Part shown: positions 3,781 through 62,841 of the stretch, piece by piece
How the letters are laid out: each line of letters starts with the position of its first letter
How positions within the stretch are numbered: the first letter of the stretch is position 1
Assembly (NCBI RefSeq): GCF_000383955.1
Contig: NZ_KB913013.1
Coordinates: 2,896,694 to 2,960,693 of the forward strand
From: Rudanella lutea DSM 19387
Lineage (GTDB): Bacteria > Bacteroidota > Bacteroidia > Cytophagales > Spirosomataceae
Length of the DNA: 64,000 bases
Reading direction: 5' to 3'
Position numbers and translations under genes: made by a program
The notes under the pieces: generated by a model
The model's input: the letters and a program-made list of their open reading frames with translations, nothing else
Databases searched by the model: none
Told to the model about the DNA's origin: nothing

Positions 3781-3882
3781 CAGTACTGGACATTTGGACT
3801 TCAGACATTAGACGTTAGACTTATTACCATTCTGTAGGGAGGTCTAACGTCTAATGTCCAACATCTAATGTCCAGTACTGAG
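3781..3882. repeat. 7-base-period inverted repeat (GACnnnn word)
   Basis: This fills the middle of the 236-base gap between the DUF1501 gene and mscS. GAC recurs at 3789, 3797, 3804, 3811 and 3818 (spacings 8,7,7,7). The complementary GTC recurs at 3842, 3849, 3856 and 3870, with ATC at 3863. The outer ends are CAGTACTGGACATT and its exact complement, so the whole unit can fold into a hairpin of about 40 bp with few mismatches. No terminator T-run follows. The word CAGTACTGAGTAG at its right end also occurs at 22211-22223. Confidence 0.85.
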
Positions 3883-3973
3883 TAGCCGATCTATCTTGAA
3901 CCAAATCATAAGATTAAGCACTCGGGCCTTGCCCATGCAGGCGATTTACCGGACAATCACATTTGAATAGCCT

Positions 3974-3981
3974 TACCTTTG
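3974..3981 (+). promoter_or_regulatory. TAnnTTTG -7 box of mscS, near-leaderless
   Basis: TACCTTTG stands only four bases before the ATG at 3986. If initiation occurs a few bases after the box, as usual for the Bacteroidota sigma factor, the transcript would begin at or next to the start codon. I see no clear -33 TTG at the usual distance. Confidence 0.6.
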
Positions 3982-3985
3982 CCCC

Positions 3986-5134
3986 ATGCAGCAACAGATT
4001 GATACCTGGATTCGTAGCCTGATCCGGTGGTTTGGATTTGTTCCCAACCGTGACCTGTCGGGCTGGATTCTGTTAATTATTGCCGTTCTGGCGGGGCTTA
4101 TTGTTAACCTGATCGTGACGCAAACGATCCGGTTTGTGAACCGAAAACGCCCTTCGCAGGCCCTGGGTTACCTACGCACCTACGTACGCTGGGCATTTTG
4201 GGCGTTTGTACCTTCCCTGTTTTTTCTATTAGCCACCAACATACAATCGGCGCGGTTTATCCGACGTCATCCCGTAGCCGACAAGGCGGCCGAGGTGCTG
4301 TTTCTGATAGCGGCTACCTGGCTGGTGGTCCAACTCCTGAAAGTAGGTGAGCTGCTCCTGGTGCGTCAATACGACACCACGCAGGATGTAAACCTCTCGC
4401 AGCGAAAGTTTGTCACGCAGGTTCGGTTCGTCCGGCGGTTTATTGTTTTTCTGATTTTCATTATCAGTGGAGCCCTGCTCTTACTCACCTTCCAGGGAAG
4501 CCGGAAAGTAGGTCTTAGTGTGCTTACCTCGGCGGGGGTTTTCTCGGTCTTGATTGGTTTTGCGGCCCAAAAAACCCTGGCTAACCTGCTGGCCGGTATT
4601 CAAATCGCCTTTACCCAGCAAATCAGGCTCGACGATGCCGTGGTGGTCGAAAATGAGTGGGGCCGTATTGAAGAAATCAACCTGACCAACGTGGTGGTCA
4701 GGCTCTGGGACCGTCGGCGGCTGATTTTGCCTATCACGTATTTTGTCGAAACCCCGTTCCAGAACTGGACCCGCTCCGATGCTTCCATCACGGGGGCGAT
4801 TCTGCTGTATCTGGATTACAACGTACCGATTGAGCGACTCCGCGAAAAAGCCCGCGAGTTTGCCGAAGCCGACCCGCTTTGGAATCAGGACGTTTTTGCC
4901 GTTCAGATTACCGACACCACCCCTACGGGCGTCATTGTCCGGATTCTGGTCTCTGCGGCCGACGCTCCCTCGGCCTTCGACCTGCGTTGCCACCTGCGCG
5001 AGGCCATTATTGTGTTTTTACGGGAAGAATACCCCGAGAGCCTGCCCCAAACCCGGGTTCAGTTCGAGCCCGCGCGGATACCCCAAAATGGCGAGGCAGG
5101 CAAAGGCCCTGTTGCAGACTTAACAATTACATAA
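3986..5134 (+). CDS. MscS-family mechanosensitive ion channel
   Basis: This 382-residue membrane protein has about four N-terminal transmembrane segments (roughly residues 25-46, 64-84, 100-118, 150-170). A pore-lining, Gly/Ala-rich MscS helix follows at about 175-205 (SAGVFSVLIGFAAQKTLANL). The beta domain of the family comes next (IRLDDAVVVENEWGRIEEI, then NVVVRLWDRRRLILPITYF). After that is a cytoplasmic alpha/beta domain, matching small-conductance MscS channels that release solutes on hypo-osmotic shock. Length exceeds E. coli MscS (286 aa) because of extra N-terminal helices, as in many Bacteroidota homologs. It is probably a single-gene unit, with its own promoter box just before the ATG and the PiT gene starting 87 bases downstream. 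Confidence 0.93.
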   Translation: MQQQIDTWIRSLIRWFGFVPNRDLSGWILLIIAVLAGLIVNLIVTQTIRFVNRKRPSQALGYLRTYVRWAFWAFVPSLFFLLATNIQSARFIRRHPVADKAAEVLFLIAATWLVVQLLKVGELLLVRQYDTTQDVNLSQRKFVTQVRFVRRFIVFLIFIISGALLLLTFQGSRKVGLSVLTSAGVFSVLIGFAAQKTLANLLAGIQIAFTQQIRLDDAVVVENEWGRIEEINLTNVVVRLWDRRRLILPITYFVETPFQNWTRSDASITGAILLYLDYNVPIERLREKAREFAEADPLWNQDVFAVQITDTTPTGVIVRILVSAADAPSAFDLRCHLREAIIVFLREEYPESLPQTRVQFEPARIPQNGEAGKGPVADLTIT

Positions 5135-5221
5135 CATTGGATTCCCCGGCGCGTGGCTGGTTTTGCAGACCTTTGTGGTGGTTTAGTCAAACCAGAAGCT
5201 TGTATCTAACTTAAAATCACT

Positions 5222-6637
5222 ATGTTCGGCTTAGAGACCGGCATTTTTATCCTGCTCGCATTCTGCATTTTAGCCGCTTGCGTCTTCGAATTCATCAACG
5301 GCTTTCACGACACCGCCAATGCCGTTGCCACCGTTATTTATACCAACTCGCTGCAACCAACTCAGGCCGTTGTCTGGTCTGGATTTATGAATTTTCTGGG
5401 GGTAATCACCGGGGGCGTGGGTGTGGGTATGAGCATCGTAAACCTGCTTCCGGTCGAGTTGCTGATTGATCAGAACGTCTACCACAGTATAGCCATGGTG
5501 CTGGCGCTTCTGTTCAGCGCCATTATCTGGAACTTTGGGACCTGGTATTTTGGTCTGCCCGCGTCAAGCTCGCACACGCTGATCGGGGCCATTATTGGCG
5601 TTGGGCTGGGTTATGCCGTTCTGCCCGACAACGAAATGGGCATTGCAGCCGTCAACTGGGACAAAGCCAAGGAAGTGTTTGCAGCCCTGTTTCTGTCGCC
5701 CCTGATCGGGTTTAGCCTTGCCGTAGTACTCATGTTTGTGCTGCGCCGGTCGCTCAACAAAGAAGTGCGCAAGCAGCTTTTCGACGAACCACAACCCGGA
5801 CAGGCACCACCGGCCTGGGTGCGCGGTATTTTGATCATGACCTGTACGCTGGTGAGCTTTTTTCACGGCCGCAACGACGGTCAGAAGGGTATCGGTCTGG
5901 TTATGCTTATTCTGATCGGTATTTTGCCCGCTTATTTCGCCGTCGACAACCGACTCGATGTGCAGCAACTCCGCCCCGACCTGACGGTTGTGGAGCAGAA
6001 AATTGCCCTTATCGACACCACGCTGCTCAACGTGACCGAGAAAGCCCGCATTGCCCAGATCAAGGCGAGTGCGCAGAATCTGGAGAAGGTGCTGGCCGCC
6101 AACAAAATCGAACGCGAACACGCACTCGACGTTCGGCAGGCCCTGCTCACGATCAGCAGCAATGTGAAGAAACTAAACGAAAGTGAAGCCGTAAAGCTGA
6201 GCGACGCCGACCGGAAAGCCCTGAGTGCAGCCGCTACGCAGGAAGAAAAAGGCCTGCGGAAATTTACTGACCACGCACCTTTCTGGGTTATTCTGATGAT
6301 TTCGCTCTCATTGGGCTTCGGAACCATGATTGGCTGGAAACGGATTGTGGTGACCGTGGGCGAAAAAATCGGCAAGAGCCACCTGACCTACGCGCAGGGG
6401 GCATCGGCCGAGCTGGTAGCGGCTGTTACCATCGGTATGGCGTCGGCCTTCAAAGTGCCGGTTAGTACCACGCACTCGCTCTCGTCGGGTATTGCCGGTG
6501 CTATGGTGGCCAGCAAAGGCATCAAAAACCTGCAAGCCGGTACGATTCAAAACATTATGCTTGCCTGGTTGCTGACATTGCCCGTTGCCATTCTGCTCTC
6601 GGCTACGCTGTTTGTATTCTTCCGCTGGCTTCTATAA
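5222..6637 (+). CDS. PiT-family inorganic phosphate transporter
   Basis: This 471-residue integral membrane protein carries both halves of the PiT/PNaS fold. The first signature is near residue 20 (FINGFHDTANAVATVIYTNS) and the second near 215 (FHGRNDGQKGIG). C-terminal repeat blocks include PVSTTHSLSSGIAGAM and the N-terminal equivalent PASSSHTLIGAIIG. A hydrophilic, coiled-coil-like insert of about 110 residues (roughly 240-350, many Lys/Glu/Ala) separates the halves, a common place for variable loops. It is expected to import phosphate with H+ or Na+ as the low-affinity system. ATG 5222 is the first start in frame with the family N-terminus. No PhoU-like DUF47 gene is next to it. Transcription probably stops at the strong hairpin at 6735-6770. 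Confidence 0.95.
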   Translation: MFGLETGIFILLAFCILAACVFEFINGFHDTANAVATVIYTNSLQPTQAVVWSGFMNFLGVITGGVGVGMSIVNLLPVELLIDQNVYHSIAMVLALLFSAIIWNFGTWYFGLPASSSHTLIGAIIGVGLGYAVLPDNEMGIAAVNWDKAKEVFAALFLSPLIGFSLAVVLMFVLRRSLNKEVRKQLFDEPQPGQAPPAWVRGILIMTCTLVSFFHGRNDGQKGIGLVMLILIGILPAYFAVDNRLDVQQLRPDLTVVEQKIALIDTTLLNVTEKARIAQIKASAQNLEKVLAANKIEREHALDVRQALLTISSNVKKLNESEAVKLSDADRKALSAAATQEEKGLRKFTDHAPFWVILMISLSLGFGTMIGWKRIVVTVGEKIGKSHLTYAQGASAELVAAVTIGMASAFKVPVSTTHSLSSGIAGAMVASKGIKNLQAGTIQNIMLAWLLTLPVAILLSATLFVFFRWLL

Positions 6638-6641
6638 AAAG

Positions 6642-6677
6642 TAGTTTAGAGTTTAGGGTTTCCGGTTTAGAGTTGGC
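6642..6677. repeat. 7-base-period direct repeat (TTTnnnn word)
   Basis: Directly after the phosphate transporter stop, TTT recurs at 6645, 6652, 6659 and 6666, with TTG at 6673, an exact 7-base spacing. Unlike most sites of this class, no inverted partner is visible before the terminator at 6735. Confidence 0.7.
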
Positions 6678-6734
6678 CGCTACACAGTAAGATCAGGGTT
6701 TCATACCTCCCCTCTGAACGAGTCTGACACCAAC

Positions 6735-6770
6735 GCAAAGGGGAGCCGGTCGAAACCGGCTCCCCTTTGC
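6735..6770. terminator. Bidirectional hairpin terminator between PiT and exbD
   Basis: A perfect 16-bp stem (GCAAAGGGGAGCCGGT at 6735-6750, complement at 6755-6770) closes a CGAA tetraloop. It sits between two convergent genes, so it can end transcription from both sides. The T-run is short on each side. Confidence 0.85.
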
Positions 6771-6789
6771 TGTTAAACGCTTTGGCGGC

Positions 6790-7182
6790 TTACTTAGACG
6801 TAGCCATAACCATTTTGATGTTCAATTTGGCACCCGTTTCGAGTACGCCTACCAGATCCTGAACCGTCAGACTTTTGTCGAACCGAACCACCACCGTGGG
6901 CTCATCGATACCGGCCATAATCGCCTTCAGCTCATTTTCGAGGTTTTCGGGCGCAACCGGCTGCTTATCGATAAAATACTGCTTGTTGGCATCCACTGAA
7001 AGCGTCACCTGCTTTTTGCTCAACTGCTGCGACGACGAAGCCTTGGGCAGCATCAGCTTAATTACATTCGGGTTGGCCACCGTCGAGATAATCAAAAAGA
7101 ACAACAACAGGAAGAACATGATGTCGTTCAGCGACGAGGTGGCCACTTCGGCGGCAAACTTATTTTTTCGGCGTAGCTTCAT
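6790..7182 (-). CDS. exbD: ExbD/TolR-family biopolymer transport protein
   Basis: This 130-residue protein has a short basic N-terminus, one transmembrane helix (about residues 20-40) and a periplasmic domain, the normal ExbD/TolR architecture. Asp20 at the start of the helix (SSLNDIMFFLLLFFLI) matches the conserved proton-carrying Asp of the family. ExbD works with ExbB (next gene upstream) and a TonB protein to energise outer-membrane transport, which fits the TonB-dependent receptor at 45146-48043. It lies 78 bases after the exbB stop; that spacer is almost entirely a 7-base-period inverted repeat. No tonB gene with a membrane anchor is adjacent. Confidence 0.92.
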   Translation of the reverse strand: MKLRRKNKFAAEVATSSLNDIMFFLLLFFLIISTVANPNVIKLMLPKASSSQQLSKKQVTLSVDANKQYFIDKQPVAPENLENELKAIMAGIDEPTVVVRFDKSLTVQDLVGVLETGAKLNIKMVMATSK

Positions 7183-7187
7183 AGTAG

Positions 7188-7258
7188 TGATGAGTTATGA
7201 GCGATGAGTTATGAATGAGTAGTTGTCCACTCATCGTTCATAACTCATCACTCATCGC
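7188..7258. repeat. 7-base-period inverted repeat in the exbB-exbD spacer (ATGAnnn word)
   Basis: ATGA recurs at 7190, 7197, 7204 and 7211. Its complement TCAT recurs at 7231, 7238, 7245 and 7252, all exactly seven apart. The two arms can pair around a loop near 7220-7229. Because it lies between two genes that should share a transcript, it could set the ratio of ExbB to ExbD by attenuation or RNA processing; this is inference. Confidence 0.85.
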
Positions 7259-7260
7259 TT

Positions 7261-7968
7261 CTAGCGAACCCGAACGTTTTCGGTAGGCTTTTGGAGCACT
7301 TCCAGAAACTCGAACGCGTTCATTTCGAGCCGGAGTGTAAACTTCTCGACCATCATATTGAGCAGGTGATAGCCCGTGTAGGCAATAACCCCCACAATAA
7401 GACCAGCCCCTGAGGTAATCATTTTTTCGTACAGACCACCGGCAATAATCCCGACGCTGATGTTGTCGGATAGCGAGATGTCGTAAAAGATTCGGATAAT
7501 CCCCGAAATGGTCCCGATAAACCCAAGCATGGGCGCAATACCGGCAATTACCCCGAGGTAACCCATGTTGCGCTCAAGGCGTCCCAGTTCAATCTGCCCA
7601 ACGGTTTCGATGGTGCTCTCAATTTCGCGGATGGGGGCCCCGATCCGGCCAACGGCTTTTTCAAACACGCGGCCAACGGATGTTTTCTGATTCCGGCAAA
7701 ACGACTCAGCCGATTTGATATTCCCCTGCAGCACCATGTCTTTCACGTTGTCGACAAACCCTTCATCAACACGGGTTTGCGCCCGGATCACAAAGAATCG
7801 TTCGAAAATGATGTACAGGGCCGCGAAGAAAAGGATGGCGATGGGAATCATAACCCAGCCCCCTTTGGCAACCAGGTCAATCAGTTGCAGGCTTTGTTGG
7901 GGGGCCACTCCCGTAGCAGCGGAGGCCGATGCGGCCGTGTCAAGAGCCGGAACCTGAAGCAAAATCAT
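7261..7968 (-). CDS. exbB: MotA/TolQ/ExbB proton channel family protein
   Basis: With ATG 7968 the protein has 235 residues. An ATG at 8010 would add 14 residues of poor quality, so 7968 is preferred. Three membrane segments are visible (about residues 37-57, 140-162, 180-205). The family block LGVIAGIAPMLGFIGTISGI is followed by the last helix pair with GLIVGVIAYTGY. ExbB forms the pentameric channel around ExbD and uses the proton gradient to drive TonB. It is first in the exbB-exbD pair. The N-terminus is Ala/Gln-rich and may include a short periplasmic extension, as in other Bacteroidota ExbB proteins. Confidence 0.92.
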   Translation of the reverse strand: MILLQVPALDTAASASAATGVAPQQSLQLIDLVAKGGWVMIPIAILFFAALYIIFERFFVIRAQTRVDEGFVDNVKDMVLQGNIKSAESFCRNQKTSVGRVFEKAVGRIGAPIREIESTIETVGQIELGRLERNMGYLGVIAGIAPMLGFIGTISGIIRIFYDISLSDNISVGIIAGGLYEKMITSGAGLIVGVIAYTGYHLLNMMVEKFTLRLEMNAFEFLEVLQKPTENVRVR

Positions 7969-8115
7969 ACAGTAATCGTCGGAGGTTGAAAGCAATGAGC
8001 GGCAGCGCATTACCTCGGTGTTAACGAGAAGCCTTTGCCGGATATTGTTAATTTACAGTGTCAAACTCCAGATATAAGGCACTCAGGGAGCACCTTATAC
8101 CCGTAGCCACATGTT

Positions 8116-8123
8116 CAAAGATA
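8116..8123 (-). promoter_or_regulatory. Candidate TAnnTTTG box upstream of exbB
   Basis: TATCTTTG is present on the minus strand about 150 bases before the chosen exbB start. The distance is long and no -33 TTG is well placed, so this is a weak call. Confidence 0.35.
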
Positions 8124-8169
8124 GCAAAGGGTACGCAAACCGGGGCGTAAAATTAGGAAAGGGCGGGGC

Positions 8170-9141
8170 TCAGGGCTTCACCAGAATCTTACCCCAGCGC
8201 CCGTGCCGCTCCGAATGTTCAACGGCTTCAACGATCTGATCAAGTGAGTACGTTGCTTCGACAGGCAACTGAATCTCTCCCGACGCCAGCATCGAAATAA
8301 CATTCTGCGCCACCTCCTGCCGGGTTTTACTATCGGTCCGGCGCATCCAGTCGGTGAGCCAGAAACCCCGAATCGTCAGCTCGCGGAAAATCATCAGCCC
8401 CACGTTGATCGACGGGTCTTGCAGGCTCAATAAGCCGTAAATGAGCATCACCCCGCCTTTGCCGAGGCACTTGATGGCCTCGCTTGCGGTGTGCCCGCCC
8501 ACGGCATCGAGCACGCAGGATACACCCGCTCCGCCCGTGATCTCGCGGACGCGGGCGGCCATATTTTCGGTTTCGGTGTTGATCACCTCCGTCAGGCCCA
8601 AGGCTTTCAGCTCGTCGTTGAGGTCATCGCGCCGAACGGTGCCGATAGTCTGAATACCTTTCTGTTTACAAAGCTGAATAACCATTTTACCAAATGCCGA
8701 CCCGCAGGCAGTGAGCATGAGCCACTGCCCAGCCTGTACGCCCGACTCCTGCACCATGGCAAAGGCCGTAAACGGATTCACAAACAGTTGAGCGGCCACC
8801 TCGTCGGGCATGGCGTCGGGTACCGGAATCAGGCTCCGGTGGTGCGCAATCGTGTATTCAGACCAGGCTCCAACGCCCGAAAAACCCACACGGGTCCCCG
8901 GCTGAATTGACACGCCATCGCCGACTTTATCGACAATACCAACTCCTTCAAAACCCGCGCCCGACGGCAGCTGCGGCCGGATACCATACAGATTTTGCAC
9001 AAACATAATGTCCGACGGGTTGATCGGGCTGGCAAGCACTTTCACGCGTACTTCACCCGGGCCGGGCTCAGGAAGGGGGCGTTCAACGGTGCGGAGAATT
9101 TCGGCGGGTTTGCCGGTTATTTCAAATTCGATAGTTTTCAT
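8170..9141 (-). CDS. MDR-family NADPH oxidoreductase (quinone/enoyl-thioester reductase type)
   Basis: This 323-residue medium-chain dehydrogenase/reductase starts at ATG 9141; the longer frame from 9168 adds nine non-conserved residues. An N-terminal GroES-like domain (EPGPGEVRVKVLASPINPSD, then PSGAGFEGVGIV) is followed by a Rossmann domain. Its nucleotide-binding turn is LTACGSAFGKMVIQLCKQKG and it later has LDAVGGHTASEAIKCLGKGG. The Cys cluster of the structural zinc is absent, which fits the quinone oxidoreductase or 2-enoyl-thioester reductase branches rather than a classical zinc alcohol dehydrogenase. The physiological substrate cannot be told from sequence. It is divergent from the aquaporin gene and has its own TATTTTTG box. 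Confidence 0.85.
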   Translation of the reverse strand: MKTIEFEITGKPAEILRTVERPLPEPGPGEVRVKVLASPINPSDIMFVQNLYGIRPQLPSGAGFEGVGIVDKVGDGVSIQPGTRVGFSGVGAWSEYTIAHHRSLIPVPDAMPDEVAAQLFVNPFTAFAMVQESGVQAGQWLMLTACGSAFGKMVIQLCKQKGIQTIGTVRRDDLNDELKALGLTEVINTETENMAARVREITGGAGVSCVLDAVGGHTASEAIKCLGKGGVMLIYGLLSLQDPSINVGLMIFRELTIRGFWLTDWMRRTDSKTRQEVAQNVISMLASGEIQLPVEATYSLDQIVEAVEHSERHGRWGKILVKP

Positions 9142-9165
9142 TCGTGATGAATTGGGTATGAGTCT

Positions 9166-9173
9166 CAAAAATA
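9166..9173 (-). promoter_or_regulatory. TAnnTTTG -7 box of the MDR reductase gene
   Basis: TATTTTTG on the minus strand ends 24 bases before ATG 9141, within the divergent region shared with the aquaporin gene. A TTTTG lies 14 bases further upstream, shorter than the usual -33/-7 spacing. Confidence 0.5.
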
Positions 9174-9269
9174 TGGCTTAATTAGCACAAAATATCACTC
9201 TCAGAAGCCGGGCGACCGACCCTGAATCGTAACCTAAACCAACGGCCGCTCTATTCTCTTGTAAAACTT

Positions 9270-9995: not shown

Positions 9996-10070
9996 AAAGG
10001 GAGGAAGGGAGAAAAGGAGAAGGCAGAAGGCAGAAGGGGAACAGATTTTCCTTTTTCCTTTTCCCTTTCC
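9996..10070. repeat. 7-base-period purine/pyrimidine inverted repeat at a convergent junction
   Basis: The left half is all purine except for C at heptad steps; GAAGG recurs at 10004, 10019, 10026 and 10033, with a degenerate step at 10011. The right half (10047-10070) is almost all pyrimidine and pairs with it. It occupies the whole 75-base gap between the aquaporin stop and the stop of the convergent saccharopine-dehydrogenase-like gene, so a bidirectional terminator role is plausible. Related purine words occur at 38639-38721 and 51625-51720. Confidence 0.8.
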
Positions 10071-12797: not shown

Positions 12798-12803
12798 GTA
12801 ATA

Positions 12804-12880
12804 GCTGGCAGTGGCTGTAGACAGCTTAATCCAGTCTGACGGCCTACCCAACTGCCAACTGCTACCGTCAACTGCTACTT
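12804..12880. repeat. 7-base-period repeat in the DUF4159-moxR spacer (ACTGC/GGCAGT word)
   Basis: ACTGC recurs at 12851, 12858 and 12871, with ACCGT at 12864 (steps 7,6,7). The left half contains the complementary GGCAGT and GGCTGT words near 12809-12820. It fills the spacer between two same-strand genes. The same word is used in the repeat at 62774-62841. Confidence 0.65.
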
Positions 12881-12883
12881 TTT

Positions 12884-14752: not shown

Positions 14753-14915
14753 AGCGGCCGGTGTTCCGGTTTTTGGTCTTTAGTTTTTGGTTTATGGTCT
14801 TTAAGTGAATGAACAATGTAAAATGCATAATGAATAATTGTATTACCTGCTAATAATCAGCCATTTCATTACACATTTTACACTATTCATTTTACATTTA
14901 ATTCTGTCTGACTAC
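14753..14915. repeat. Two adjacent 7-base-period blocks (GGTnnnn; AATGnnn with inverted CATnnnn)
   Basis: Block one: GGT at 14768, 14775, 14789 and 14796, with AGT at 14782. Block two: AATG at 14808, 14815, 14822 and 14829, followed by the inverse word CAT at 14867, 14874, 14888 and 14895, with CAC at 14881; all steps are exactly 7. Together they occupy most of the 227-base gap between the DUF58 gene and the BatA-like gene. The region is much more A/T-rich than neighbouring genes. Confidence 0.85.
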
Positions 14916-14964
14916 TTAGTTTTGGGTTTATGGCGGCTGCCAAAAATGACAAACCCCTTTTTAC

Positions 14965-20036: not shown

Positions 20037-20085
20037 CTTGTAGTTTTAGGTTTATAGTTTTGGATTCTGGGTTTATAGTTTCTTT
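20037..20085. repeat. 7-base-period direct repeat (GTTnnnn word)
   Basis: GTT recurs at 20043, 20050, 20057, 20071 and 20078, with ATT at 20064: six heptads in exact register. It ends 14 bases before the start codon of the M1 peptidase gene, so it would be in that gene's leader or promoter. Confidence 0.75.
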
Positions 20086-22253: not shown

Positions 22254-22310
22254 CACCATTCTACATTACCCATTCCTCATTATCCATTATGCATTCCCTG
22301 TTACTCATTA
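22254..22310. repeat. 7-base-period direct repeat (CATTnnn word) running into a start codon
   Basis: CATT recurs at 22257, 22264, 22271, 22278, 22285, 22292 and 22306, with TGTT at 22299: eight heptads without an indel. The ATG at 22289, start of the next gene, is part of one heptad, so the repeat either supplies the start or overlaps the first codons. Confidence 0.85.
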
Positions 22311-23176
22311 CCCTGAAATCCCGCCCGATGCTGTCTATTTTGTACGGCGCGTCGCTGGCGCTGGGGCTGTTGGTGGCCTTGCCTCTATTTTCGACGCTCA
22401 CCGCCGAAGATGCCGACTCGCTGGCCCCGTTACAGATGCTGCCCGGCTTCGATTACACGGTCTACTCCGACTTTATGGCCCAAAACGACAAGGCTGTTTC
22501 GCCCCTGTTGCGGGTGGGCCGCTGGGTGGGAGTTGCTTATCTGCTGCTGAGCGTTTTCTTCGCGGGGGGCATCCTGTACCGCTTCGCGCAACCCGGCCCA
22601 AGCTTCCGGATGGTCGATTTCTGGCGGGCGTCGAGCACGTATTTTGGGCGGTACCTGCGGTTGTTGGGGGTAACGGTTCTTTTCGTTTTTTCGGCCGGTC
22701 TGATCTGGCTTGTTATTGGTGCGCTGGCCATTATTGCTCTCACCGATACCTTCACCGAGCGCGGGTTGTTTGGTATCGGGGCTGGTGCGTTCGGGCTGTT
22801 TTCGATAGCCGTCACGTTTATTCTGTGCGTGGGCGACTATGCCAAAGTGATTATGTTCCGCGAAGACGAAACGGGGGCTTTCCGGGCGTTTGGCACAGCA
22901 ACCCGGTTCGTTTGGCGCAACCTACGGGCTACCTACGGCCGGTATTGGCTCCTGATTGGCCTGGGCACGGGGTTATTTGGCCTCTACTTTGTCCTGGATG
23001 AGCTGATTGGGATGACCAACTGGTTGACCATCGGGCTTATGCTCCTGATTCAGCAGGTCTTTATCCTGTCACGGATTATCCTGAAAATCTGGAACCTCGG
23101 CATAGCATACACGCTGTACGGACAAACCAACACATTGAAAACCAGAACGCCGATTGGCGAGGTAACGCCAACATAA
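22289..23176 (+). CDS. Integral membrane protein of unknown function
   Basis: The 295-residue protein has about six hydrophobic segments (roughly 14-34, 75-93, 122-150, 163-190, 225-245, 248-268). Short polar loops such as VGDYAKVIMFREDE and TATRFVWRNLRATYGRYW resemble the DUF4013 / glycerophosphodiester-phosphodiesterase membrane-domain style of protein, but I cannot name a family with confidence. The start is uncertain: ATG 22289 lies inside a 7-base repeat, and ATG 22328 (MLSILYGASLALG) would remove 13 residues. It converges with the ABC exporter gene. Confidence 0.75.
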   Translation: MHSLLLITLKSRPMLSILYGASLALGLLVALPLFSTLTAEDADSLAPLQMLPGFDYTVYSDFMAQNDKAVSPLLRVGRWVGVAYLLLSVFFAGGILYRFAQPGPSFRMVDFWRASSTYFGRYLRLLGVTVLFVFSAGLIWLVIGALAIIALTDTFTERGLFGIGAGAFGLFSIAVTFILCVGDYAKVIMFREDETGAFRAFGTATRFVWRNLRATYGRYWLLIGLGTGLFGLYFVLDELIGMTNWLTIGLMLLIQQVFILSRIILKIWNLGIAYTLYGQTNTLKTRTPIGEVTPT

Positions 23177-28497: not shown

Positions 28498-28508
28498 TAG
28501 TCAAAAAG

Positions 28509-28552
28509 CAACGCCCTTCAGGAGCCAGCTTGTCGACTCCTGAAGGGCGTTG
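28509..28552. terminator. Hairpin terminator after the sigma/anti-sigma operon
   Basis: A perfect 16-bp stem (CAACGCCCTTCAGGAG at 28509-28524, complement at 28537-28552) with a 12-base loop lies 12 bases after the stop codon. An A-run precedes it and TGTT follows, so it may also act on the opposite strand toward hemE. Confidence 0.8.
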
Positions 28553-28573
28553 TGTTCGTTATGCCACTCATTC

Positions 28574-28616
28574 AGCGATGACATCGTTTGCTTTCAGACC
28601 GCAAGATGTCATCGCT
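28574..28616. repeat. Inverted repeat with GATGACATC word, 3' of hemE
   Basis: AGCGATGACATC (28574-28585) pairs perfectly with 28605-28616 over a 19-base loop. It is 20 bases after the end of hemE on the minus strand. The same ATGACATC word forms the palindromes at 29693-29735 and 29852-29884. Confidence 0.75.
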
Positions 28617-28636
28617 TATTACTTCCAAATAGGTCG

Positions 28637-31481: not shown

Positions 31482-31485
31482 GCTA

Positions 31486-31589
31486 TAATGAGGAATGAAT
31501 GATGGGTAATGGACAATGGACAATGGCCTATTCTGTTGATTATCAGACAACTCATTCTACATTCTACACTACACATTATACATTAAATT
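31486..31589. repeat. 7-base-period inverted repeat at a convergent junction (AATGnnn / CATTnnn)
   Basis: AATG at 31487, 31494, 31508, 31515 and 31522, with GATG at 31501, is followed by the inverse word CATT at 31553, 31560, 31574 and 31581, with CACT at 31567. All steps are exactly 7. It fills the 108-base gap between the WYL stop and the stop of the convergent sugar dehydrogenase gene. Base pairing of the arms is loose; the shared period is the stronger signal. Confidence 0.85.
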
Positions 31590-33894: not shown

Positions 33895-34035
33895 GCGAGG
33901 TTGTATAACGCTGGGGGCGCAAAATAAGCAAAATCCAGCACTTCCTCGTTTTTGGCCTACCGGCTATCATTTGTCAGTTGTAGTCTGTAGTTTGGCCAAA
34001 GTTTTCAGCCACCCCCTCTTAATCCATTCGAAGCA

Positions 34036-38638: not shown

Positions 38639-38721
38639 GGGAAGGAGGAAGGGAGAAGGGAACGCAAGCGTGTCGTTGCCCCTTTTTCCCTTCTCCTTTC
38701 CTCCTTTTTCCCCTTCCTCTT
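38639..38721. repeat. 7-base-period purine/pyrimidine inverted repeat at a convergent junction
   Basis: AAGG recurs at 38642, 38649 and 38656. The arm 38641-38661 pairs with 38687-38707 at 19 of 21 positions over a 25-base loop. It fills the gap between the TIM-barrel gene stop and the stop of the convergent small gene, and resembles 9996-10070 and 51625-51720. Terminator function for both genes is likely. Confidence 0.85.
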
Positions 38722-42994: not shown

Positions 42995-43111
42995 TCCGTT
43001 GAGTCGTAAATAAGGCTTGAACACTAGGGATACTCTACTAACAATTAAGTGGCTACAAAGGCCAATTGTTTGCTACCGGGCGGCAAAGAATGGCAAATCT
43101 GAGCCAGAGGT

Positions 43112-43322
43112 ACGCGGATGATTTCGATTGGCACACGGATGACACAGATTGAATGGATTTCCGCAGATTTGTGAGTATTCGCGAACATCTGCCCAATCTG
43201 TGGAAATCAGCGTTCCAATTCATCCTCGTACATCCACCCAATACCCGTAATCCGCGTGCCCACTAATCTGCGTACATCCGCCAAATCCGCATCATTTGCG
43301 TGCCAATTGAAATCATCCGCGT
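43112..43322. repeat. Long 9-base-period inverted repeat (GAT/ATC words)
   Basis: The outer 23 bases (43112-43134) pair with 43300-43322 with one mismatch. Inside, GAT recurs at 43138, 43147, 43156 and 43166, and complementary ATC words recur on the right half at steps of 9-10. The words (GGATGA, GCAGATT, CCGCGTG) are those at 22085-22180. Confidence 0.8.
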
Positions 43323-43351
43323 GCCCATTCATCCGTCGTTAAAAGAAAAAA

Positions 43352-43370
43352 GCCGGAGCAAAGCCCCGGC
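43352..43370 (-). terminator. Intrinsic terminator of the TIG lipoprotein gene
   Basis: Read on the minus strand, GCCGGGGC-TTT-GCTCCGGC (8 bp with one G-U pair) is followed directly by a six-T run and lies 38 bases after the stop at 43409. Confidence 0.88.
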
Positions 43371-43408
43371 CCTTTCGTGCGACACCAATATGAAATTAAA
43401 AGAAGGGT

Positions 43409-51624: not shown

Positions 51625-51720
51625 AAAAAAGGAGGAAGGGAGAAGGGAAAAAGAGAAGGGTTGCCGGCCTTACGACCTTTTTTCCCTTTACTCCTTTTTC
51701 CCTTCTCCTTCCCTCCCTTT
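51625..51720. repeat. 7-base-period purine/pyrimidine inverted repeat at a convergent junction
   Basis: AAGG recurs at 51629, 51636, 51643 and 51656, with AAAG near 51650. The purine arm pairs with the pyrimidine arm 51684-51722 in a long imperfect stem that extends to the stop of the lytic transglycosylase gene. The GGAGGAAGGGAGAAGGG word is nearly identical to 38641-38660. Confidence 0.85.
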
Positions 51721-55746: not shown

Positions 55747-56070
55747 TCATATCTCCATCAAAGCCGCTGTGAGCCTTATTTTATCGTAACTAAAACGCCC
55801 GCCCAAGTGCTCGTAGACGGGTTTTGCGCTGTTATTATCGAAGCCAATCAGGTTGATGGCTTCTTCGATTTCAGCCCGCTCGGCGGAGGTAATCATACCT
55901 TCCAGATCAATGCTGTAACCAGACCGGCGCAGGTACAACAAATGGCTCAAAACGGTTTGCGTAGTCACCTGCCGCTCGGCCGCAATCTCCTCCATCGAGT
56001 AGCCTTTTTCGTAGAGTTCGAGCGTCACCAGATGGGTCGATCCGCGCAGGTTGTTACCCTCGCGGGCCTG
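55747..56070 (-). pseudogene. recQ: 3' part of recQ (HTH domain) cut off by a frameshift
   Basis: Reading across the C-run 56071-56076 with one base fewer continues the RecQ frame through REGNNLRGSTHLVTLELYEK into a C-terminal helix-turn-helix (YSMEEIAAERQVTTQTVLSH). It ends at 55747 in the RecQ wing-like RFSYDKIRLTAALME. As the sequence stands, RecQ stops early and this segment has no good start of its own (93 codons from ATG 56028). Either an extra G/C was added in the six-base homopolymer, as in sequencing error or slippage, or the gene is truly split. Bacteroidota RecQ proteins normally carry this HTH (HTH_40 type). Confidence 0.85.
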
Positions 56071-57925: not shown

Positions 57926-57947
57926 GGGCACGTAACGGGTATAAATT

Positions 57948-57955
57948 CAAATTTA
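57948..57955 (-). promoter_or_regulatory. TAnnTTTG -7 box of recQ
   Basis: TAAATTTG on the minus strand ends 22 bases before ATG 57925. No -33 TTG is at the usual distance. Confidence 0.5.
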
Positions 57956-58055
57956 CGTAAATTCTGCCTCTTTTTCTGTTGCATTAGTGATTTTCTACCC
58001 ATATTACCGTCTCAAGTGCTAAACCTTTATTCTAACTCAAAACCATTGCATTACC

Positions 58056-58595
58056 ATGAAAAACAGTGTGGCATTACTCGCATTTGTGTTGAGCGTACTG
58101 GTAGCGTTTAACAGCCCGGCTCAGGACGAAAAGCCGAAGAAAGAGAAGGCTAAAAAAGAGGCTAAAGCTGAGAAGAAAGAGAAAAAGGAAGCCAAGGAAG
58201 ACAAAAAAGAAGCTAAGGCCGATAAGAAAAAAGCTAAAGACGAAGGCGATAAAGTAGCGAAGAAAGAGGCTAAAGAAGACAAGAAAGCCGCCAAGGCTGA
58301 CAAGGCCGACGCTAAAGCCGACAAGAAGGAAGCCAAAGAAGACAAAAAAGCGGCCAAGGCCGACGACAAAGCCGATAAGAAAGCCGCGAAAGCCGACGAT
58401 AAGGCTATGGCCAAGGCTGACAAGAAGGTAGCCAAAGCTAAAGAAGAAAAAGCCAGCCCCGCCGATTACAAAGCCCCGGTTGACCGTAGCCAGAAAGGCC
58501 CCAATGGCGAACCCGTGTACACCGGCCCCCGGGGTGGTAAGTACTACATCAATAAAAACGGCAACAAAACATACCTGAGCAGCCTGCGCGACTAA
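58056..58595 (+). CDS. Exported Lys-rich protein with PBCV-type basic adaptor domain
   Basis: The 179 residues start with a signal peptide (MKNSVALLAFVLSVLVAFNS). Residues about 25-130 are a low-complexity run of Lys, Ala, Glu and Asp in the pattern KKEAKEDKK, probably a long charged helix. The last 45 residues (GPNGEPVYTGPRGGKYYINK, then GNKTYLSSL) match the short PBCV-specific basic adaptor domain first described in Chlorella viruses and found in some Bacteroidota secreted proteins. The function of neither part is known. Repeated codons show internal duplication. It converges with the M23 gene across a perfect hairpin. Confidence 0.85.
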   Translation: MKNSVALLAFVLSVLVAFNSPAQDEKPKKEKAKKEAKAEKKEKKEAKEDKKEAKADKKKAKDEGDKVAKKEAKEDKKAAKADKADAKADKKEAKEDKKAAKADDKADKKAAKADDKAMAKADKKVAKAKEEKASPADYKAPVDRSQKGPNGEPVYTGPRGGKYYINKNGNKTYLSSLRD

Positions 58596-58617
58596 GCATC
58601 AGGTTGGTACGTACTCC

Positions 58618-58666
58618 AAAACGGGTTGGTGTAGCACGGTTTGTCCGGCTTACACCAACCCGTTTT
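58618..58666. terminator. Bidirectional hairpin terminator between two convergent genes
   Basis: A perfect 16-bp stem (58618-58633 and 58651-58666) starting AAAACGGGTTGGTGTA, with a 17-base loop and A/T-runs at the outer ends, sits between the Lys-rich protein gene and the M23 gene. Confidence 0.9.
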
Positions 58667-58670
58667 ATGT

Positions 58671-59306
58671 TCAGAGCCAGCCCGCCGGATCGGGGCATAG
58701 TTCCAGAAACCGCGCCCGGTCGGAGAGCGAACACACACCGGGAAAATCACCCCGATTACCGAGCATATCGGTCATGAGCTGAAAATGCAGGTGAGGGGGC
58801 CAATCGCCGTTTTCGGGAAAGGGGCCAATCTCGGCCAGTTTATCGCCTGCCCGGAAGACCTTGCCTTCGTACAACCCCTCCAGCGACGCCCTTGAGAGGT
58901 GACCGTACAGACTGAATACGGGTGCACCGGCCACATCATGTTGCAAAATGATGGTGGGTCCGTAGTCGCCGAAATTGGCGTTGTCGGCAAAGCTATGCAC
59001 AACACCCGCTTTGGGGGCATATACGGGCGTACCCGCTTCGGCCCACAGGTCGATGCCGAGATGAATTTCGCGGGGTTCGGCCTGTACGTCGCCGAAGTGA
59101 GCACTCCGGCGGTAAATGACCCGGTGCTCGTTGTACCCGCCAATGCCTACCTGCGCCCCGGCTGCCCGTAATTTGCCAAACACGTACTCGCTGAACACGG
59201 CGGTATTGGTCAGGTCGAGGCCCGAACCCGGCAGCAGGTCGGGGTTGGTTCCCGAAAAGTCGAGCGGTAAAGCTCGGGATAGATCAAACGGAAGAATAGT
59301 GGCCAT
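58671..59306 (-). CDS. M23-family (LytM-type) metallopeptidase
   Basis: ATG 59306 gives 211 residues; in-frame ATGs at 59318 and 59324 are alternatives. The zinc site reads HLGIDLWAEAGTPVYAPK, with the second metal block HLHF in WPPHLHFQLMTD, and a catalytic-type LYGHLSRASL. There is no signal peptide, whereas wall hydrolases of this family usually have one, so this form may act in the cytoplasm, be released otherwise, or be a metal-binding homolog with another role. The RRSAHFGDVQAEPREIHLGI segment is longer than in lysostaphin-type enzymes. Confidence 0.83.
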   Translation of the reverse strand: MATILPFDLSRALPLDFSGTNPDLLPGSGLDLTNTAVFSEYVFGKLRAAGAQVGIGGYNEHRVIYRRSAHFGDVQAEPREIHLGIDLWAEAGTPVYAPKAGVVHSFADNANFGDYGPTIILQHDVAGAPVFSLYGHLSRASLEGLYEGKVFRAGDKLAEIGPFPENGDWPPHLHFQLMTDMLGNRGDFPGVCSLSDRARFLELCPDPAGWL

Positions 59307-59423
59307 GCCAGATTTCATACCCAAAATTCGGAAAAGAAGGACAGGGTTGTATGGTTTAGGGTAAGTTGTTTTGATGCACGGTTTTCGTTGGCGGGGGTCG
59401 GCGAACCGGGTGAATGCATCCCT

Positions 59424-61034
59424 CTAAATACTCAGTACGGGGCCACCTGCCCGGATTTCATCATTGGCAAACTCGGCATATTGCTCAAAATTTTTCCGGA
59501 ACATCTCGGCCAGGCGGGTAGCCTGTTCGTCGTAAGCCGCCGTATCGGCCCAGGTAGCGCGCGGGTTCAGAACCTCAGCCGGTACGTTGGGGCAATGTTG
59601 CGGTACAGCAACACCAAACACTGGGTGATTTTCGTAAGGTACCGGGTCGAGTTCGCCATTCAGAGCGGCCGTGATCATAGCCCGGGTATAGTCGAGGTTC
59701 ATGCGGTGACCGGTCCCGTAGGCTCCGCCAGTCCAGCCGGTATTGATCATCCAGACATTGGCCCCAAACTGCTGCATCCGGGCGCCCAGCATCTCGGCGT
59801 AGCGCGTGGGATGCAAGGGCATGAAGGCCGCGCCAAAGCAGGCCGAAAACGTTGCTTTAGGCTCTTTCACCCCCATTTCGGTACCAGCCACCTTGGCGGT
59901 GTAGCCCGAAATAAAATGGTACATGGCCTGCCCCGGCGTCAAGCGCGAAATAGGCGGCAGAATTCCGAACGAGTCGGCCGTCAGGAAAAAGATATGTTTA
60001 GGATGGCCCCCTACCGACGGTTCTTTGGCCGTATTGATAAAATAAATCGGGTACGAAACCCGGGTATTCTGGGTTACTGAAATATCGGTATAGTCGACGG
60101 TTTGGGTGCCGGGTTTCAGGCGGGTGTTTTCGAGGATAGCGCCCCGGCGGATGGCCCCAAAAATCTGCGGTTCTATTTCGGCGGTCAGGTTCACAACTTT
60201 GGCGTAACAGCCCCCTTCGAAATTAAACACGCCCGCATCGGCCCAACCGTGTTCATCGTCGCCGATAAGAAGCCGGGCGGGGTCGGCGGAGAGCGTGGTT
60301 TTTCCCGTACCCGACAACCCGAAAAACAGAGCCGTATCGCCCTCTCGCCCATCCACTCCGGCAGTCCCCTGATTAGCCGACGCGTGCATCGACAAGGTAT
60401 GCTGCTCAACGGGCAGTTTAAAATTGAGTACCGAGAAGATCCCTTTCTTCATCTCGCCCGCGTAGCCCGTACCCCCGATGAGCAGCACATTTTTGGTCAT
60501 GTTGAGCACGGCAAAGTTGCCACTGCGGGTGCCGTCGGTTTCGGGGTTAGCCCGAAATTCCGGGATGCAGATAATGGTAAAGTCGGGAGCGAAGTGAGCC
60601 ATTTCGTCGGCCGAGGGCCGCAGAAACATATTGTAACAGAACAGGCTATGCCAAGCCAGCGTATTCACCACCTGAATCGTGAGCCGGTAATCGGGGTGAG
60701 CCCCGGCGTAGGCATAGCGCGTGTACACGGTTCGGGTGGTTAGGTAGTCGAGCATTTTCTGGTGTAGCGCGTCGAACTTGTCCGGGTCAAACGGGATATT
60801 GACCGACCCCCACCAGACAGTATCGGCGGTTTTGGCGTCTTTGACAATAAACCGGTCTTCGGGCGAGCGGCCCGTAAACTCGCCCGTGTCGACCATCAGA
60901 GCGCCATTATCGGCCAATTGGCCTTCGCCATTGAGTAACGCGTGGGCAATCAGTTCGTCGGGAGTCAGGTTGTGAAAGCGCTCGGCCGCGCGCACAACCT
61001 CAGGTATGGCAGGGGTAGGTACGGAGGTAATCAT
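59424..61034 (-). CDS. pckA: Phosphoenolpyruvate carboxykinase (ATP)
   Basis: ATG 61034 gives 536 residues, the family length. The P-loop GLSGTGKTTLSADP and the following LLIGDDEHGW, NFEGGCYAKVVNL and the substrate segment EFTGRSPEDRFIVKD identify the ATP-type enzyme. It converts oxaloacetate and ATP to phosphoenolpyruvate, CO2 and ADP for gluconeogenesis, and can run in reverse. It is encoded alone. A TACATTTA sequence upstream is one base from the TAnnTTTG box. Confidence 0.97.
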   Translation of the reverse strand: MITSVPTPAIPEVVRAAERFHNLTPDELIAHALLNGEGQLADNGALMVDTGEFTGRSPEDRFIVKDAKTADTVWWGSVNIPFDPDKFDALHQKMLDYLTTRTVYTRYAYAGAHPDYRLTIQVVNTLAWHSLFCYNMFLRPSADEMAHFAPDFTIICIPEFRANPETDGTRSGNFAVLNMTKNVLLIGGTGYAGEMKKGIFSVLNFKLPVEQHTLSMHASANQGTAGVDGREGDTALFFGLSGTGKTTLSADPARLLIGDDEHGWADAGVFNFEGGCYAKVVNLTAEIEPQIFGAIRRGAILENTRLKPGTQTVDYTDISVTQNTRVSYPIYFINTAKEPSVGGHPKHIFFLTADSFGILPPISRLTPGQAMYHFISGYTAKVAGTEMGVKEPKATFSACFGAAFMPLHPTRYAEMLGARMQQFGANVWMINTGWTGGAYGTGHRMNLDYTRAMITAALNGELDPVPYENHPVFGVAVPQHCPNVPAEVLNPRATWADTAAYDEQATRLAEMFRKNFEQYAEFANDEIRAGGPVLSI

Positions 61035-61260
61035 AAGGTGTTTAGTTTGATGAAGTACAGGTAAATGTACAACGTCCGCTTCAGAGGTTGCACACATTTA
61101 GGGTGATTTTTAGCTGGTTGCGGCTGTGGCTGCCACTGGCCGCAGATTGGGTATTTCCTACTTCGGGAGTATATTTACCAACATTTTTTCCCGTTTTTGT
61201 GCATAAGCAACTTCGGTTTGCCTTACACACGAAACTTCATCTGCTTTTTAAATTTTCTGA

Positions 61261-62778
61261 ATGGAAGCTACGGCGACGAAAACAGTACCTTCGGCCACCT
61301 TATTTGGCCACCCGGTCGGTCTCTTTGTTCTCTTCTTTACCGAAATGTGGGAACGGTTCAGCTACTACGGTATGCGGGCTATTCTGCTCCTCTTTTTGCT
61401 CGACAAGGTAGGGGGCGGCATGGGACTCAACGAATCGGAAGGGGCCGCTATCTACGGCATTTATACAGCCTCGGTTTACCTGCTCTCCTTACCGGGCGGC
61501 TGGATTGCCGATAACCTGCTTGGCCAGCAAAAATCGATCTGGTATGGTGGTATCATTATCATGCTCGGCCACATTATTCTGGCTATTCCGGGTAGCGAAG
61601 CCTTATTTTTCGGCGGTCTCTGTACGGTTGCCATCGGCACGGGCCTGCTCAAACCCAACATTAGCAGCATTGTCGGCGAGCTGTACCCCGAAGGAGGAGC
61701 CCGCAAAGACTCGGCCTTTTCGATTTTCTACATGGGTATCAATATCGGTTCGCTGCTGGGCATTTCTATTGTGGGGTATCTGGGGCAGAAAGTGGGCTGG
61801 CACTACGGGTTTGGCGCGGCAGCGGTAGCCATGTTTCTGGGCCTGACTACGTTCAAAATCTTCAGTAAACGGTACCTGGGCGATCATGGCAATGTAATTG
61901 CACAAGCCCCCGCCGACGCGGCTGCAACAACGGGCGGTAATCGCTCCATGCTCATTTTCCTGGCCGCGCTCGTCTTACTGCTGGCTGGTTTACAGCTCAC
62001 AGGAGTTATCGACATGACTACGGCGCAGGGGCTGGCACAGGCCATGGGCACCATTATTTCGCTGGTAGCTATCGGGTACTTTGCGTACATCCTGCTGGGT
62101 GGCGGCCTCACCACGGTTGAGAAAAAGCGCGTGGTGGTTCTGTTCGCGTTCTTTCTGGCGGCTGCTATGTTCTGGGCCGGCTTCGAACAGCAGGGTTCCT
62201 CACTGCAACTCTTCTCCGACCGCTATACCGACCTGAATATTCTGGGCTGGCAGATGCCGTCGAGCTGGTTTCAGAATTTCAACCCGGCGTTTATTCTGAT
62301 CTTTTCACCGGTTCTGGCTTCGCTTTGGGTGTTTATCGACAAACGTAAGATTAGCTATCCGGCACCGGCCAAGCTCGCTACCGGTCTGCTGTTGCTGGGC
62401 TCAGGGTATCTGTTTATGGTGGTGGCCTCAAATCAGGCGCTGGCCGGGCAGGCAACCGGTACACTGGTTTCGCCCCTGTTTCTGACGTTTACGTATCTGT
62501 TTCACACCCTGGGCGAGTTGTTCCTCAGCCCCGTAGGCCTTAGCGCCTTCTCAAAACTGGCACCCAAACGCTACACCAGTCAGCTGATGGGGATCTGGTT
62601 TGTTGGGGCCTCGCTGGGTAACCTCATAGCCGGTTTGTTTGCGGGTGGCTTCGATGAGGAAAACGTGCAGCAAATGCCAGCCATGTTCCAGAGTGTAGCC
62701 ATGTTTAGCCTTGGGTTTGGCCTGCTGCTGTTGCTGCTGTCGAAACCCATGAAGAAATGGATGGGGGGTATTGAGTAG
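61261..62778 (+). CDS. POT-family proton-dependent peptide transporter
   Basis: The 505-residue protein has about 12-14 membrane segments and the two POT signatures: EMWERFSYYGMRAILLLFL near residue 24 (ExxERFxYYG) and FSIFYMGINIGSLLGISIVG near 150. The later FLSPVGLSAFSKLAPKRYTS matches the PTR2 C-terminal pattern. It imports di- and tripeptides with protons, fitting a peptide-using life with the exported M1 and other peptidases in this window. Its stop codon lies inside the left arm of the repeat at 62774-62841. Confidence 0.94.
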   Translation: MEATATKTVPSATLFGHPVGLFVLFFTEMWERFSYYGMRAILLLFLLDKVGGGMGLNESEGAAIYGIYTASVYLLSLPGGWIADNLLGQQKSIWYGGIIIMLGHIILAIPGSEALFFGGLCTVAIGTGLLKPNISSIVGELYPEGGARKDSAFSIFYMGINIGSLLGISIVGYLGQKVGWHYGFGAAAVAMFLGLTTFKIFSKRYLGDHGNVIAQAPADAAATTGGNRSMLIFLAALVLLLAGLQLTGVIDMTTAQGLAQAMGTIISLVAIGYFAYILLGGGLTTVEKKRVVVLFAFFLAAAMFWAGFEQQGSSLQLFSDRYTDLNILGWQMPSSWFQNFNPAFILIFSPVLASLWVFIDKRKISYPAPAKLATGLLLLGSGYLFMVVASNQALAGQATGTLVSPLFLTFTYLFHTLGELFLSPVGLSAFSKLAPKRYTSQLMGIWFVGASLGNLIAGLFAGGFDEENVQQMPAMFQSVAMFSLGFGLLLLLLSKPMKKWMGGIE

Positions 62779-62841
62779 GCAGTCGGCAGTGGCAGTTGGC
62801 AGTGCTGGCGCAAGCTTTTCTGCCGACTGCCTACTGCCACT
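62774..62841. repeat. 7-base-period inverted repeat overlapping the POT stop codon (GGCAGnn word)
   Basis: GGCAG recurs at 62778, 62785, 62791 and 62798; the inverse CTGCC recurs at 62820, 62827 and 62834. The arm AGTAGGCAGTCGGCAG (62774-62789) is perfectly complementary to 62820-62835. The TAG stop of the transporter (62776-62778) is part of the arm and the next gene's stop lies at 62842, so the element exactly fills a convergent junction. Confidence 0.88.

Follow-up and report, generated by a model that had tools for sequence, protein, structure and literature searches.

What kind of element repeats a short word every seven bases between bacterial genes, follows it with an inverted copy, and spells the word differently from gap to gap? 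The question is raised by a window of 64,000 nt (bases 2,896,694-2,960,693 of contig 1) in the 6.55 Mb genome of Rudanella lutea DSM 19387 (G000), where an original prediction made from sequence alone had listed 13 such stretches. We tentatively regard these heptad hairpins, with a confidence that approaches an even chance without reaching it, as DNA-level palindromes of about 60-130 bp, located at gene 3' ends and subject to fast turnover. Their plan would be a short, mostly G-biased and C-poor word, usually of 7 nt, running from the gap edge to the tip, with a reverse-complement array running back; in many of the copies that are preserved best, chiefly those of relatives, a constant core would occupy the tip.

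The predicted period-7 stretches are real. Set against 500 dinucleotide shuffles of its own gap, the lag-7 signal reaches p<=0.02 at 10 of the 13 listed sites, with sites 14768 and 14808 sharing one gap and hence one joint test; those not significant individually are 10004-10033 (p 0.30) and 51629-51656 (p 0.11), which are both purine tracts, and 20043-20078 (p 0.13). Internally, 11 of the 13 sites score best at lag 7 or 14, and the two at 12851 and 62778 at lag 13 (6+7). Genes were called throughout with a codon-score open reading frame caller made for this analysis. In 33 stretches (660 kb) that were not picked for repeats, 61 period-7 segments with a score of at least 10 fall in 108.5 kb of gaps, compared with a shuffle mean of 2.4 and maximum of 6, and 10 fall in 551 kb of coding sequence. 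Mean lag-7 identity is 0.278 in gaps, 0.2547 in shuffles (z 11.5) and 0.244 in coding sequence, in a 464-kb sample in which 5 of 20 stretches were picked at pattern matches. One listed site, 22257-22306, part of a one-armed CATTnnn array at 22256-22313, extends beyond the start predicted for the following gene (22289).

Seven is the largest period in the gaps, yet others are present too. Segments exceed the shuffle mean at lag 14 (48 vs 1.2) and lag 8 (35 vs 1.6), and to a lesser extent at lags 9 (13 vs 1.5), 12 (12 vs 0.9) and 10 (9 vs 1.5); lag 11 gives 3 vs 1.1 and lag 5 none. Among relatives, the congener G002 has 7 period-8 segments and 1 period-7 segment in 60 kb, and G010 has 5 period-7 and 4 period-10 segments in 80 kb. 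The original prediction of a class defined by its period thus survives in part: period and inverted arms without a single sequence do unite the elements, but seven bases is not their defining trait. The same prediction had suggested that a protein or RNA moving in steps of seven might read the sites. The dominance of period 7 in the arms is what such a reader would leave, whereas elements of the same form with periods 8 and 10 in close relatives, period 8 in G000 itself, the exchange of words at the same site, and the failure to find a candidate reader make it a most implausible explanation.

Nor is the sequence of the word free, as had been supposed. Seven words take in 219 of the 224 arrays, mostly outside genes, that were found in 1.46 Mb: GTTTnnA (67 arrays), AATGnnn (61), TGAACAn or CAGTGAA (28), ATGAGTn/GAGGAGT (20), GACnTTA (18), AAGGAGA (17) and GGCAGTn (8), with 5 others. 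The 224 arrays and 122 hairpins are a hit-enriched sample with word shares tilted to GTTTnnA and AATGnnn; 5/20, 16/20 and 2/20 stretches of the three sets were picked at matches to patterns of these two words. For 184 of the 224 arrays an inverted partner scores higher than the null's 99th percentile, which bears out the prediction of an inverse copy in most. A single word family runs throughout 56 of 66 multi-array elements, and several of the 10 mixed-word elements resemble two neighbouring elements.

The arms also have a polarity. In G000 the word reads forward on the 5' arm leading to the tip in 119 of 121 paired elements (1 reverse, 1 tie), and this holds in co-directional (44/44 and 38/40), convergent (30/30) and divergent (5/5) gene contexts; unpaired arrays likewise point inward from the gap edge. 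Because the polarity is the same in convergent and divergent gaps, selection at stop or start codons was rejected as its cause. What the words have in common is that G outnumbers C on the 5' arm (104 vs 13, with 5 ties, in G000), as it also does in 29 of 31 hairpins from three orthologous gaps of relatives (1 tie, 1 reverse). Ordinary G000 hairpins with loops up to 10 show no such bias (37 vs 50), and those with loops of 11-40 a weaker one (47 vs 23). Of 395 genomes from the phylum, 11 contain AATG-loop-CATT, with 70 matches in G000, 168 in G010 and 1-3 in the nine others; one of the 395 contains the reverse pattern, CATT-loop-AATG, at two sites, where the 5' arm consists mostly of GGTCATT and AGTCATT units and is not C-rich. 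Convergent polarity would follow directly if broken 3' ends were extended with arrays of a G-rich word, by a telomerase-like enzyme or a slipping polymerase, and then rejoined, since both 3' ends would be extended. The polarity in all gene contexts and the inward-pointing unpaired arrays fit this account, but we consider it improbable, as RVT_1 is absent from G000 (0 matches in a search, on which ground templated addition by a reverse transcriptase was rejected) and the arms of many elements match unit by unit, unlike independent additions.

A constant apical core, GCTGACGC and GCGTCAGC separated by about 12 nt, tops arms of many different words in Spirosoma, Fibrella and Larkinella. The exact core is present in 26 of 121 family genomes (137 copies in G212, 91 in G010, 52 in G503, 51 in G214, 45 in G235 and 9 in G000), and a backward control gives at most 3 per genome. 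In a non-random draw of 61 flanked cores, made from the first sites of each genome, 47 are enclosed by an outer stem, and in every one of these the 5' arm has more G than C; the other 14 mostly resemble fortuitous matches or damaged copies. The left flank repeats best at period 7 or 14 in 35 of 42 cases and at period 8 in 4. Within the single genome G212, one core sits on arms of AGAGCCA, GTTTGTG, ATTACGA, GGATTTT, AGTGGTG, AAGTCTA and other words. A scan of about 85,000 species, with a pattern that requires TTG ahead of the core and favours arms with that ending, returned among the matches listed Fibrella, Spirosoma, Larkinella, one Cytophagales metagenome-assembled genome and another labelled Renibacterium, the arm of which is non-periodic. 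The 80 loci listed there hold 86 cores; 85 fall outside predicted genes and 78 have an outer stem, with the polarity kept in 77 of the 78. Along 71 arms the identity at lags 7 and 14 is 0.65 and 0.66, and the remaining lags between 3 and 15 give 0.19-0.40. The median distance to a gene 3' end is 3 nt (77 of 94 within 15) and to gene 5' end 37 nt (15 of 44). A degenerate form of the core, GCTG[A/G]CGC...GCG[T/C]CAGC, makes 4 pairs in the 1.46 Mb, each of them within a heptad hairpin (two of GAGGAGT, one of GATGAGT and one of AATGnnn). The exact core has 1 match there against none for 40 shuffled exact cores, a control that covers the exact core and not the 4 degenerate matches. A fixed tip shared by many of the best-preserved copies points to a DNA process that builds or moves the hairpins. 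A search for core gaps with an ortholog in genus g8 found one, exbB-exbD, which holds a different word in G010, and no empty site. As a separate observation, a GC-rich insert near GCGGTCCGCCGC(C/T)GCGG breaks heptad arms in Fibrella genomes (L313, L333, L360, L262).

How fast the elements change can be seen in the congener G001, which has about 90% DNA identity to G000 over the window. Among the 146 of 166 orthologous gaps that were compared, gap identity has a median of 0.89 without heptads (n=121), and is 0.63 with heptads in both genomes (n=10) and 0.49 (n=10) and 0.52 (n=5) with heptads in one genome only. The word itself is swapped at two window gaps: at 7183, an ATGAGTn hairpin that occupies the whole exbD-exbB gap (7186-7256) is replaced in G001 by an AATGnnn hairpin, as is the degenerate GGCAGTn hairpin (12805-12877) of the gap at 12798, and neither whole-gap swap leaves a shared remnant. 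CAGTGAA-type words are exchanged for CAGTnGG-type words at 2,767,909 and 2,775,330. These swaps were read by eye, as were the loop inversions described below, the target duplications beside two more GACnTTA copies and certain element ends, including those at 12805-12877. The word is kept in other heptad gaps of the 25, and some are near-unchanged, such as 2,772,984 (0.92) and 2,888,103 (0.94).

The exbB-exbD gap was compared in 30 genomes, leaving out G208. Differing hairpin words fill it in G000, G001, G002, G211, G006, G186 and G010, among others; some relatives have hairpins of another make, and in nine of the 30 the gap is just 0-43 nt. The rpsM-rpsK gap holds GCAGT words in G000 and G002 and GTTTTCA in G001; in contrast, many relatives share a conserved sequence in the adjacent gap, rpsK-rpsD. 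Orthologous gaps were found to change the word while keeping period, hairpin and its direction (window 7183 and 12798, exbB-exbD, rpsM-rpsK), as the original prediction had envisaged. Because the swaps occur between co-transcribed genes, in a ribosomal operon and in exbB-exbD, fast-changing palindromes must be tolerated, or used, inside operons. Two hairpins of other kinds were noted alongside: one with ACAGGATTACAGGATGTACAAGATT arms beside heptads near 2,972,328, in G000 only, and a hairpin repeat CAGTGAAGCGGTGCTTCGCTGGGC... that lies beside a Y1 gene (L214) and within the swapped G001 gap near 2,775,330. The conserved rpsK-rpsD gap (L181-L210) contains GGCGACATTnGGTTGTGTCTGTCC in many genera and resembles a ribosomal-operon leader RNA.

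Arrays also gain whole units. Nine exact AATGTGT units in G001 correspond to about two in G000, and one GACnTTA copy has extra repeat units, both of which are what plain slippage in ordinary heptamer microsatellites would produce. As a full account slippage is inadequate and very improbable, given the inverted partners of 184/224 arrays, the fixed polarity and the shared core; it stays as one step in the life of an element.

The two arms of a hairpin resemble copies of each other. Among elements already past the pairing threshold (10.4), true arm pairs outmatch same-word arms taken from other elements (p from 2e-6 to 0.02) in every one of the seven families except GACnTTA (p 0.45), and the longest perfect stems reach 40 bp. 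The orientation of the loop is flipped between G000 and G001 at window 38639 and at 2,778,111, which is what recombination between the arms, or templating of one by the other, would produce. An excess of G·U over A·C in the sense strand would mark structured RNA, and the heptad class as a whole in G000 appears to be without this signature: in 83 G000 hairpins between co-directional genes, read in the sense of transcription, G·U pairs number 117 and A·C pairs 123 (p 0.75). The test has power because ordinary G000 hairpins do show an excess (130 vs 62 in 126 hairpins, of which the 50 that end in a U tail give 48 vs 8), although stems were found differently in the two sets, ungapped with loops of 3-10 for the control and gapped for the heptads.

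Several results weigh against a single DNA-level class with a common tip. The core is scarce in G000, where a loose core-like motif is found in 14 of 122 tips compared with 3.3% of background windows, and in no tip of the GACnTTA, AAGGAGA or TGAACAn families; a core common to every word was rejected on these counts. The arm test is somewhat biased toward true pairs because elements were retained for having matching arms. In two ribosomal gaps of relatives, infA-rpmJ and rpsM-rpsK, G·U exceeds A·C by 59 to 19 (27 hairpins), and pooling these with exbB-exbD (19 vs 26, 13 hairpins) gives 78 vs 45 (p 0.004), as RNA selection would. Some ribosomal-operon copies in relatives may thus be used as RNA. 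Could all of the elements be RNA hairpins under selection, acting as intercistronic stabilisers, attenuators or terminators whose arm sequence is free as long as it pairs? The ribosomal gaps, with hairpins of similar length in many genera, and the location right 3' of stop codons speak for it. We think it quite unlikely, since neither G000 nor exbB-exbD has a G·U excess, unlike ordinary hairpins, the polarity extends to divergent gaps, pairing requires neither a period nor a word vocabulary, and an Rfam scan of the window at the gathering score gave 0 matches.

Further counter-evidence concerns miniature inverted-repeat transposable elements (MITEs), a pattern that the original prediction had set aside. 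The GACnTTA palindrome at 3780-3882, with ends TCAGTACTGG...CCAGTACTGA, is a 113-bp insertion relative to G001, which has a clean empty site, and is bounded in G000 by a 10-bp duplication of the target, the direct repeat TAGCCGATCT at 3770-3779 and 3883-3892. Similar duplications flank two other GACnTTA copies, and most of 15 aligned copies share ends and loop, although at least two differ throughout. The family therefore has the features of a MITE: inverted ends, target duplication, empty site and many similar copies. Some of the 34 aligned AATGnnn elements likewise form a family of dispersed copies, in which the loop is conserved and the ends are TAAGT...ACTTA. One such AATGnnn element is cleanly present in G001 and absent from G000 at 2,876,563, an insertion without duplication beyond one base. 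GACnTTA and part of AATGnnn accordingly behave as ordinary MITEs, and the exclusion of this pattern did not hold. It is conceivable that the words are the terminal inverted repeats of separate transposon families, one per word, with the transposase elsewhere and the period of 7 reflecting internal binding sites, and the empty site, the duplications and the conserved loops and ends of these two families are consistent with that. For the class as a whole we regard it as unlikely: five words (GTTTnnA, TGAACAn, AAGGAGA, ATGAGTn, GGCAGTn) have no conserved loop or ends by inspection, one core carries many different arms within a genome, and whole-gap word swaps leave no shared remnant. A MITE-like family of a non-heptad kind was also seen in G001: in the ortholog of window 28498-28636 there is a 164-bp insertion with ends GAAGCTGTTTGAGTT...AACTCAAACAGCTT that is not in G000, and a similar 100-bp insertion lies near 2,872,981.

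We favour a DNA-level origin of the replication/recombination type, as the original prediction had allowed; it fits best with the lack of G·U excess in G000 and with arms that match like copies. An element would first be inserted or assembled next to a stop codon, a position that is observed, with target duplication seen for GACnTTA only. The first arm may then template the second by fold-back or template-switch synthesis, with the core perhaps serving as the fold-back point; we infer this from the arm matching, the perfect stems of up to 40 bp, the pair of loops found inverted between genomes and the apparent lack of an RNA signature in G000. Whole-unit slippage would lengthen the arrays, with one clear case. 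The element would later decay and be lost, and a different word would take its place there; the outcome is seen between relatives, and the route probably involves new copies arriving at the same few tolerated spots as those lost. Ribosomal-operon copies in relatives could have been taken up as RNA hairpins. A bolder reading, possible although we doubt it more than we believe it, is that a dedicated palindrome-making DNA system, which is neither transposon, minisatellite nor RNA element, places a constant core on arms of a few words per genome with the G-rich strand almost without exception leading to the tip, beside stop codons, and at times rewrites them. Such a system might also explain heptads in Xanthomonas and Nostoc.

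No enzyme for this process was found among those tested (RVT_1, Y1 and SbcD), and this too counts against the DNA-level reading. Y1 transposases are found in 109 of 121 family genomes but not in the core-rich G235, which has 45 cores and 0 Y1 matches, and Y1/RAYT (REP-associated tyrosine transposase) was rejected for that reason. In G000 there are four Y1 matches, and the three strong ones are bordered by repeats other than heptads; Y1 genes at L212 and L213 are bordered by their own repeats, TTTACCCCGTAGGGGTT... and AGTCCTCGGATGGTGGGCG..., which are unlike the heptad words. G000 has no SbcD match above the family cut-off (G000:C1:3061226-3061528), and its congeners G001-G003 have one. Loss of SbcCD as a permissive condition was rejected, as SbcD is present in G001, G002, G010 and G212.

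The remaining window elements illustrate this variety. An AATGnnn palindrome of the dispersed subfamily at 14802-14922 (loop CTGCTAATAATCAGC, ends TAAGT...ACTTA, placed by eye) adjoins a GTTTnnA array at 14768-14802; G001 lacks the palindrome and has a GACnTTA element in the same gap (14738). Two other GTTTnnA arrays lie at 6643-6674, for which no inverted partner above threshold was found, and at 20043-20078, which is weak. AAGGAGA hairpins occupy 9997-10068, 38640-38711, where the loop is inverted in G001, and 51629-51708, where G001 has a different loop; the first and third contain the purine tracts that are not significant alone. The AATGnnn hairpin at 31485-31585 has the same word and a different loop in G001. 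The GGCAGTn hairpin at 62778-62838 lies immediately 3' of a stop codon and has a core-like tip, GCTGGCGCAAGC, and an additional weak array that was absent from the earlier list is at 33967-33994. Degenerate ACGCGGATT-type gap repeats with a period of about 9 were also observed, in the window at 42995-43408 and in L010 near 15000.

How do these elements compare with known heptamer repeats and small palindromes? The short tandemly repeated repetitive (STRR) sequences of cyanobacteria are intergenic heptanucleotide repeats made of near-exact direct units. They share the heptamer period and intergenic site with the heptad hairpins, whose arms are instead degenerate and inverted. The same contrast applies to the TAACTGA heptamers, which are intergenic and patchily distributed in Beggiatoaceae, cyanobacteria and five Bacteroidetes, and are described as direct, near-exact and mostly upstream of start codons, with one inverted in 170 sets in the genome reported (PMC4679880). 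With MITEs, GACnTTA shares inverted ends, a conserved interior and the 10-bp duplication, whereas five of the seven words are without a conserved loop or shown duplication. Repetitive extragenic palindromic sequences and their hairpin-forming pairs (REP/REPIN) resemble the heptad hairpins as numerous short intergenic palindromes of species-specific sequence, but according to the portion of the source consulted they are of 20-40 bp and fixed sequence, carry a GTAG or CGTC tag and are linked to a Y1 (RAYT) transposase (PMC3733652), unlike the heptad hairpins in tag, size and, with the 45 cores of G235 and no Y1, in that link.

The original statement that degenerate, inverted heptads had not been described proved too strong. 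In Xanthomonas, degenerate 7-nt repeats, GGGAATC/(GGGANTN)n, are mostly intergenic and nearer the upstream open reading frame (average 28 nt), include about 70 convergent pairs per genome able to form hairpins, and are not retained at the same genes between two species (PMC4692102). The degenerate unit, the intergenic site and the convergent pairs able to form a stem are shared; the accessible part of that report describes one word per genome, and no core, orthologous swaps or polarity rule beyond "convergent" (PMC4692102). In Nostoc, the P6b stem of the tRNA-Leu (UAA) intron is built of one of two 7-nt motifs, TDNGATT or NNTGAGT, and motif-for-motif replacement of the whole region, with the hairpin retained, has been inferred several times (PMC4476775). 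This is reminiscent of the word swaps, although P6b is, as far as that source's accessible text goes, a single locus in a group I intron of cyanobacteria with an RNA function and two motifs. By description, which is the level at which the likeness is drawn, the heptad hairpins appear to belong with the degenerate inverted heptamers of the Xanthomonas and Nostoc type. The origin of the heptamers in cyanobacteria, Xanthomonas and Beggiatoaceae is left open in the accessible parts of the reports. The present elements set rules that any origin must satisfy: mostly one word per hairpin, a fixed polarity, copy-like arms and a constant core in many copies. With family genomes that hold dozens to more than 100 cores, and with close species pairs, the generating event could be caught. 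A search of the open-licence literature found no description of such a core or class in this bacterial family, nor of a constant core that accepts different arms or of a genome-wide vocabulary with orthologous word swaps; PMC4666352 and PMC3488679 contributed nothing more. The kind of element is thus partly known, as degenerate inverted heptads; the core, the polarity and the word swaps are new, and the class is broader and more ordered than was first claimed.

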